In this document: positions 57,851-60,220 of the stretch, one piece after another
Layout of the letters: every line of letters starts with the position of its first letter
Position numbering within the stretch: position 1 is the first letter of the stretch
Source of the DNA: an uncultured Bryobacteraceae bacterium
GTDB taxonomy: Bacteria > Acidobacteriota > Terriglobia > Bryobacterales > Bryobacteraceae
NCBI GenBank assembly: GCA_937924525.1
Contig: CALDSU010000007.1
Span: 186,001 to 250,000, forward strand
DNA: 64,000 nucleotides
Direction of reading: 5' to 3'
Position numbers and translations under genes: made by a program
The notes under the pieces: generated by a model
Told to the model about the DNA's origin: nothing
Database searches by the model: none
The model's input: only the letters and a program-made list of their open reading frames with translations

Positions 57851-58744
57851 ATGGCCAAGCTAGGGTTTCTGGGACTGGGCATCATGGGCTATCCGATGGC
57901 CCGCAACCTGCTTCGGGGCGGACACGAGGTTGCTCTCTGGTCCTTCACCGCAGGCAAAGCCAGGGATCTGGCTGCCGCCGAAGGCGGCGTTTTCTGTGAA
58001 ACTCCACGCCAGGTGGCCGAGTTCGCGGAATGTTCTTTTCTCTGCGTCGGCGACACGGAGATGTCCCGTACGGTGATTCTGGGGCGGGACGGTTTGGCGG
58101 ACGGGGCGCGACCGGGTTCCGTGATCGTGGATGCCAGCACGGTGTCGCCTTCCGCCAGCCGGGAGATAAGCGCGGAGTTGACCCGCCGGGGGGTGCACTT
58201 CCTGGACGCTCCCTGTACGGGCTCCAAGCCGGGTGCGGAAAGCGGGAACCTGACCTTCATGGTGGGGGGCGACCAGGGTGTTTTCGATCGAGTCCGGCCC
58301 TTTTTTGAACCCATGGGCAAGCGCCTGTACTACTGCGGCGGGCCGGGAATGGGTCTGAACGCCAAATTGACCCAGAACCTGATTCTTTCTAACATCTTGC
58401 TGGCGTTCAACGAGGGCCTGGTGCTCTCGACCAAGGCTGGGTTGGATCCGGGCTTGATGGTCGACATCTTGGCGAACAGCGCCGCCAAGTGCGGACTGAT
58501 TGATTTCAAAGCACCTTATGTCTTCCGGCGCGACTTTTCGCCGAATTTCTCGGTCAAGTGGATGCACAAGGACATCGGACTGATACTGGAATCGGGAAAA
58601 GAGCTCGGCGTGCCGCTGCCGCTCACCGGTTTGACCCAGCAGATGTTTCAGGCGGCCGTGGCGCGGGGCCACGGCGAAGAAGATATGTGTTCTACAATCA
58701 AGATTTTAGAAGAGTGGGCCGGGGTTGAAGTGAAGAAGCTATAG
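57851..58744 (+). CDS. Beta-hydroxyacid dehydrogenase (3-hydroxyisobutyrate dehydrogenase/GLYR type)
   Basis: The 297-residue product has the N-terminal Rossmann motif LGFLGLGIMGYPMARNLL. The substrate-binding segment is FLDAPCTGSKPGAESGNLTFMVGG, and the catalytic lysine falls in the GLNAKLTQNLILSNILLAFNEG helix. The family reduces or oxidises short 3-hydroxyacids or glyoxylate/tartronate semialdehyde. The cysteine in DAPCTGSKPGA differs from the usual DAPVSGG, so specificity may differ. It stands alone, before the structured region upstream of dxr. Confidence 0.9.
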   Translation: MAKLGFLGLGIMGYPMARNLLRGGHEVALWSFTAGKARDLAAAEGGVFCETPRQVAEFAECSFLCVGDTEMSRTVILGRDGLADGARPGSVIVDASTVSPSASREISAELTRRGVHFLDAPCTGSKPGAESGNLTFMVGGDQGVFDRVRPFFEPMGKRLYYCGGPGMGLNAKLTQNLILSNILLAFNEGLVLSTKAGLDPGLMVDILANSAAKCGLIDFKAPYVFRRDFSPNFSVKWMHKDIGLILESGKELGVPLPLTGLTQQMFQAAVARGHGEEDMCSTIKILEEWAGVEVKKL

Positions 58745-58787
58745 GCGGAATACAATTTTTTGTTGCATTCCGGGGCAGAGTCTACTA

Positions 58788-58921
58788 GAATTGGAAGTAA
58801 GCCGGGGAGGCAACTCCCACCAAAGCGAGACTAACCTCTAAACAAAGACCCCTGAAGCAACCCTCCCCGGCGCCCGAAAGGGTTAGAGGTCTTCCCCAAA
58901 GCTAAAAGCGATTCCAAATTC
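58788..58921 (+). ncRNA. Candidate structured RNA with pseudoknot topology
   Basis: Several complementary segments nest and cross. The outer stem is GAATTGGAA (58788-58796) with TTCCAAATTC (58912-58921, one bulge). P2 is GCCGGGGAGG (58801-58810) with CCTCCCCGGC (58862-58871), a perfect 10 bp. The crossing helix is ACCTCTAA (58834-58841, inside the P2 loop) with TTAGAGGT (58883-58890, outside it), a perfect 8 bp. Local GNRA-like hairpins GGGAG-gcaa-CTCCC and CCC-gaaa-GGG compete with P2. A -10-like TAGAAT (58786-58791) lies 17 bp after TTGCAT; if it is used, the outer stem is not transcribed. I match it to no known RNA family. It lies 110 bp before dxr. Confidence 0.45.
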
Positions 58922-59032: not shown

Positions 59033-60220
59033 ATGCGCACCATTACCCTGCTCGGCTCCACGGGCTCGATCGGACGCAACACCCTGGATGTGGTCCGTCA
59101 GAACCGGGACCGCTTCCAGATCTTCGCGTTAGCGGCAGGGAACAACATCTCTCTGCTGCTTGAGCAAGTGGTGGAGTTTGCTCCTCGAGTGGTTGCCACG
59201 GGAAGCGAGTCCGGCCGTTCGCAGCTGCTGGAGAGCCTCCCGGCGACCGGGCTGGAGCGGCGTCGCTGGCCCGAGGTCACCACCGGGCCGCGGTCCCTGG
59301 TGGAAATCGCCACTGCCGGCGAAGTGGATACGGTGATGTCCTCGATCGTCGGCGTAACAGGCCTTGAAGCAACCTATGAAGCAGTGCGGCGAGGGAAGCG
59401 GATCGGCTTGGCGAACAAGGAAGTCCTGGTTTCGGCGGGCAGCCTGGTCATGAAAGCGGTCGAGGAAAGCGGGGCGGAGTTGATCCCGGTCGACAGTGAG
59501 CACAACGGAGCGCACCAGTGCTTGCGGGCCGGCCGCCGCAGTGACGTCACCCGTCTGATCCTGACCGCTTCCGGCGGTCCTTTCCGGGACCTGCCCCGGG
59601 AGCGCATGGAGGCGGTGACTCCCGCCCAAGCGCTCAACCATCCCACCTGGAAGATGGGAAACCGGATCACCATCGATTCCGCGACGCTGATGAATAAGGG
59701 CTTCGAGGTGATCGAGGCGTGCTGGCTGTTCGGCTTTCAGCCGGCCGAGGTCGATGTGGTGGTGCATCCCCAGTCGACGGTGCACGCGCTGGTGGAGTTC
59801 AACGACGGCAGCGTGATCGCGCAGGTCTGCGCGACCGATATGCGCATGCCCATCCAGTATGCGCTGACCTATCCTGAACGCTGGCCGGCGCCGGTTCCAA
59901 AGCTGGATTGGGCCCAGGCGCGCGAGTGGGAGTTTCTGCCACCCGACCACGCCAGGTTCCCTTTGCTGAAACTGGCGTACCAGGCTTGGGAAGCGGGCGG
60001 AGCGGCAACCTGCGTTCTGAATGCGGCGGACGAGGTTGCCGTCGACGCCTTCCTGGCTGGCCGCATTTCGTTTCCCGCCATCTCGGAATTGGTGGAGGAA
60101 ACCTTGGCGCGCGCGCCCGTGCGGCGTCCGCAATCGATTGAGCAAGTCCTGGAGGCCGATCGCGAGGCCCGTCACCTGTGTCATCGTCTGGTGAGCGCCC
60201 GCGCGCTGGCCCGAGTGTGA
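59033..60220 (+). CDS. dxr: 1-deoxy-D-xylulose 5-phosphate reductoisomerase
   Basis: The 395-residue product has the NADPH motif LLGSTGSIGRNTLDVV. The catalytic and metal region includes GLANKEVLVSAG, PVDSEHNGAHQCL and LTASGGPFRD, and the flexible loop HPTWKMGNRITIDSATLMNKGFE is conserved. Length and motifs are typical. It makes 2-C-methyl-D-erythritol 4-phosphate in the MEP isoprenoid pathway. It is followed 7 bp later by rseP, an order common in bacteria. A candidate structured RNA lies in the 288-bp gap before it. Confidence 0.97.
   Translation: MRTITLLGSTGSIGRNTLDVVRQNRDRFQIFALAAGNNISLLLEQVVEFAPRVVATGSESGRSQLLESLPATGLERRRWPEVTTGPRSLVEIATAGEVDTVMSSIVGVTGLEATYEAVRRGKRIGLANKEVLVSAGSLVMKAVEESGAELIPVDSEHNGAHQCLRAGRRSDVTRLILTASGGPFRDLPRERMEAVTPAQALNHPTWKMGNRITIDSATLMNKGFEVIEACWLFGFQPAEVDVVVHPQSTVHALVEFNDGSVIAQVCATDMRMPIQYALTYPERWPAPVPKLDWAQAREWEFLPPDHARFPLLKLAYQAWEAGGAATCVLNAADEVAVDAFLAGRISFPAISELVEETLARAPVRRPQSIEQVLEADREARHLCHRLVSARALARV

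Follow-up and report, generated by a model that had tools for sequence, protein, structure and literature searches.

The window analysed here is a 64,000-nucleotide stretch of DNA from a soil Acidobacterium of the order Bryobacterales, and the segment of interest sits in a gap of 288 bp that separates a beta-hydroxyacid-dehydrogenase gene (57851-58744, plus strand) from dxr (59033-60220, plus strand). A preliminary description had judged the helices of this gap unlikely to arise by chance, and shuffling bears this out: a perfect helix of at least 10 bp appeared in 5 of 1000 dinucleotide shuffles, and such a helix together with a crossing helix of at least 8 bp in 0 of 1000. The nested folding energy of the segment alone is unexceptional (z -1.56). 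The statement that it can be assigned to no known family is true for Rfam 15, since a search of the window returned nothing at or above the gathering threshold and only chance-level matches. The features of the locus are as follows.

58763-58768, plus strand: predicted -35 hexamer TTGCAT, its fixed register kept in 69 loci
58786-58791, plus strand: predicted -10 hexamer TAGAAT, kept as TAnnAT in 69 loci, with a 17-nt spacer
58801-58810, plus strand: 5' strand of stem P1, GCCGGGGAGG, with covariation
58805-58818, plus strand: alternative hairpin H1, GGGAG-GCAA-CUCCC, which excludes P1
58811-58821, plus strand: module M1, CAACUCCCACC, near-invariant
58822-58838, plus strand: module M2, AAAGCGAGACUAACCUC, near-invariant in family f1 and variant in part of f3
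58844-58859, plus strand: module M3, AAAGACCCCUGAAGCA, near-invariant, with GACCCCU in every aligned sequence
58862-58871, plus strand: 3' strand of P1, CCTCCCCGGC, with covariation
58872-58883, plus strand: tetraloop hairpin P2, GCCC-GAAA-GGGU, near the likely 3' end
58884-58897, plus strand: pyrimidine-rich tail, the approximate predicted 3' end

Of 101 genomes searched at the DNA level, among them the window's own genome, 74 contain the segment, all from the same order. A covariance model based on 69 loci recognized the RNA in 214 of the 237 own-family genomes, covering 71 of 76 genera, and in 139 of the 148 of these that are of good quality; one copy per genome is the rule in this family. 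All 111 positives among the 399 genomes of a class-wide sample came from the window's order, and those in a phylum-wide sample were only its 3 own-family genomes. In the other orders of both samples Infernal, run with its stricter filters, did not find the family, although these settings can overlook very diverged relatives. Named records recovered by a pattern scan were mostly Bryobacterales, Bryobacteraceae, and Solibacter (we take Solibacter usitatus to share the order Bryobacterales), while the pattern matched no viral contig exactly and blastn matched no plasmid. Two matches elsewhere were rejected: a weak one outside the order, in another family (G088), which lies inside an apparent protein-coding frame, and one that the pattern scan gave in a Planctomycetota MAG (L108), which has neither P1 nor a model match and is put down to chance. 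The RNA is also carried by a record titled "Acidimicrobiia" (Actinomycetota; L151, VFZE01000003.1), a title that looks wrong; G030:C3, to which this record was likened, was placed in the window's own family. Contigs often end at or within the RNA (L230, L231, L232-L235, L039, and L241), often two of them per genome, which suggests either that tandem copies went unresolved or that extreme between-species conservation broke the assembly in metagenomes.

Conserved RNA secondary structure is evident through covariation in P1, the 10-bp helix of the window. Across homologues 98.8% of its cells are paired, compared with 52-67% in slid controls, none of 500 shuffles scored as high, and 4 pairs carry changes on both sides. 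At one pair the replacement of G-C by A-U requires at least 4 changes on the dxr protein tree, although only one of them is forced by branches with strong support. In a tandem copy (L240), GCCGGAGAGG with CCTCTCCGGC is another compensatory swap, and in family f3 an A-to-G change in P1 accompanies a U-to-C change in M1, which may be a single event. The suggestion that GNRA-like hairpins compete with the 10-bp helix was borne out by H1, which is conserved, with 97.6% of cells paired and one covarying pair. Since P1 is predicted to be the more stable of the two (mean about -24 versus about -12 kcal/mol), H1 would be transient. Within P1 lie about 50 nt in which the C-rich, near-invariant modules M1, M2, and M3, predicted to be mostly unpaired, are separated by variable spacers.

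The remaining helices fared differently. Both perfect helices are present in the window in crossing arrangement, the 8-bp one at 58834-58841/58883-58890, but of the three helices in the preliminary description only P1 is conserved and covaries across homologues. Complementarity at the 8-bp helix is the same with a locus's own tail as with the tails of other species (mean 4.94 versus 4.95), and 7 bp or more are reached with 19% of own tails and 18% of the others. Formation of the crossing helix is possible in the window and in a few loci that resemble it in sequence; five loci (L002, L003, L008, L010, and L011) have 7-9 bp of it. The outer stem, described as about 9 bp, is perfect only over a 6-bp core (TTGGAA, 58791-58796, with TTCCAA, 58912-58917) and does no better than swapped controls (6.4 versus 6.6). 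The 5' arm shares nucleotides with the -10 hexamer and lies upstream of where transcription is predicted to start; we rejected the outer stem as lying in the promoter and not being conserved. Because neither helix exceeds its between-species controls, the description of the segment as pseudoknot-forming is unsupported, and the pseudoknot was rejected.

Upstream of P1, 69 loci keep a TTGCAT-like hexamer, a spacer of 17 nt, and TAnnAT in fixed register, which points to a conserved sigma-70 promoter (TTGCAT-17 nt-TAGAAT, 58763-58791) just upstream of the RNA. The case for this putative promoter rests on conservation, since a plain consensus scan of the window's single sequence does not call the hexamers. 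From the promoter spacing, transcription is expected to start at approximately 58798-58800. In family f1, TAnnAT is followed by TTGGAA, and the stretch that surrounds and follows the -10 box (58781-58796 in the window and its homologues; TATnCTAnnATTGGAA) is conserved unusually strongly. This exceeds normal promoter needs and may mark the site of a regulator.

At the other end, P2 is found in 42 of 68 loci, compared with 14% of shuffled tails, and its loop alternates across loci among GNRA, UUCG, and UCU types. The GAAA-loop hairpin at 58872-58883 is a common feature of the family. A U-tract follows P2 in two loci (L013 and L023), and three f3 loci (L066, L069, and L070) have a strong terminator-like hairpin. 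Most loci examined have no canonical U-tract terminator, which makes the 3' end uncertain and may allow read-through into dxr; the predicted length of the RNA is about 95 nucleotides.

These elements can be assembled into a possible course of events. The sigma-70 promoter would start the RNA at about 58799, and during transcription the 5' strand may first form H1, after which P1 (10 bp) would capture the strand and free M1. P1 would then present the C-rich, near-invariant loop of about 50 nt, with M1-M3 mostly unpaired and P2 near the 3' end. The RNA would most likely act in trans, with short seeds in M1-M3 pairing to G-rich stretches of several mRNAs, perhaps assisted by Hfq, which the genome encodes. 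Because no target was found, this mode of action is one that we only infer. A simple ORF rule applied to 864 kb of the genome gave 529 predicted translation starts, and sequences complementary to M2 and M3 were not enriched there, which leaves generic blocking of ribosome-binding sites unsupported for these two modules; complements of M1 showed a weak excess (14 versus 7.2 +/- 4.3). Exact 12-nt complements of M2 and M3 outside the gene were no commoner than a reversed control in 61 genomes, and runs of 10 nt complementary to Escherichia coli 16S and 23S rRNA occurred at chance level. Short-seed pairing is possible, and by analogy with other C-rich small RNAs we propose trans pairing through the modules tentatively, at somewhat less than even odds.

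The main rival to trans pairing is a protein platform, in which the RNA would belong to a housekeeping-type ribonucleoprotein, the loop would serve to bind the ribosome, RNA polymerase, or some protein, and pairing with mRNA would be secondary. It would account for the constraint on nearly all loop bases in an order whose dxr protein end branches have a median of 0.38 changes per site, for the usual single copy per genome, and for target tests that gave no signal. However, no candidate protein has been identified, C-rich modules with variable spacers look like pairing modules, and tandem duplication, which the RNA also undergoes, is common in regulatory small RNAs; we regard the platform as unlikely, if still a serious competitor. 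A more specific form, an order-specific two-state housekeeping RNA whose G-rich 5' strand exchanges between H1 and P1 while the exposed 50-nt loop binds a dedicated protein or core machine, seems improbable. The RNA is not 6S or SRP RNA, since the models for these (RF00013 and RF00169) each have one match in the genome, both on other contigs, and the segment matches neither.

The relationship to dxr bears on a further alternative, raised in the preliminary description, that the segment is a cis-acting leader or riboswitch controlling dxr. This gene is the usual downstream neighbor, on the same strand and 140-480 nt away in 50 of 70 loci, and the scarcity of canonical terminators would also suit a leader. 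In 18 of the 70 loci, however, the fetched flank holds no dxr, with purA, accD, convergent, or unrelated genes there instead, and in two genomes of one clade (G008 and G049; loci L022 and L039) the RNA gene is oriented opposite to dxr. It seems that nothing but the RNA gene was flipped in place in this clade, between the dehydrogenase gene and dxr; L022 shows the full gene order, while in L039 the contig breaks off at the RNA. Several genomes carry tandem arrays of 2-3 copies, 280-600 bp apart and each with promoter and P2 (L227, 4684-5723; L228, 5590-6201; L106, 2911-3587; L240, 4720-5080, the same as L174). Inversion, other neighbors, and tandem copies with promoters of their own are the behavior of a free-standing RNA gene. 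Given the inversion in one clade and the 18 loci whose fetched flank lacks dxr, the RNA is not a leader of that gene; control of dxr as a general function is largely refuted and very improbable. The idea that the RNA-like features reflect chance or a DNA-level element such as a protein-binding site, with no functional RNA, could draw on the unconserved 8-bp helix and outer stem and the unexceptional folding energy, but it is scarcely credible beside the compensatory changes in P1, P2 loops that vary between stable tetraloop types, and the fixed register of the promoter.

The segment therefore appears to be a real noncoding RNA gene, and the structural model first proposed for it was right only in part. 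With its own promoter and its independence from neighboring genes, it is very probably an independent small RNA gene, as the preliminary description had offered as one option. Our best explanation as a whole, an independent, order-wide small RNA with modules presented by P1 and most likely acting in trans, has a probability of roughly 0.6.

Among known systems, RsaE/RoxS, IsrR, and LhrC of Firmicutes and the actinobacterial 6C RNA appear comparable in that they likewise have short, exposed, conserved C-rich segments, and some small RNAs with C-rich motifs are also multicopy or tandem (LhrC is multicopy). They differ in carrying these motifs in separate hairpin loops, whereas a single long-range stem encloses the three modules here, and in that pairing with ribosome-binding sites is unsupported here for M2 and M3 and no Rfam model matches. 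6S RNA and the bacterial small SRP RNA share the size range and the single conserved copy per genome, but their genes lie elsewhere in the genome and the segment fits neither model. One earlier candidate, the Solibacter-1 motif, is listed in the main text of Weinberg et al. 2010 (PMC2864571) for one organism, Solibacter usitatus, where it is rated doubtful, has no Rfam accession, and is given no further detail. Compared at the level of this listing, the unregistered Solibacter-1 may or may not be the RNA described here. Apart from that candidate, our literature search found no paper describing the RNA. We class the RNA, which is absent from Rfam 15, as a putative new family among the bacterial small RNAs, a kind already known.

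Acidobacteriota are among the most abundant bacteria in soil, and we found almost nothing in the literature on their small RNAs. The family brings with it a covariance model, predicted ends, and natural variants in the form of compensatory swaps and tandem copies. If the two-state housekeeping RNA were true, it would be a ribonucleoprotein of a previously undescribed kind. An RNA that is nearly universal and nearly invariant in one acidobacterial order probably has an important role there.
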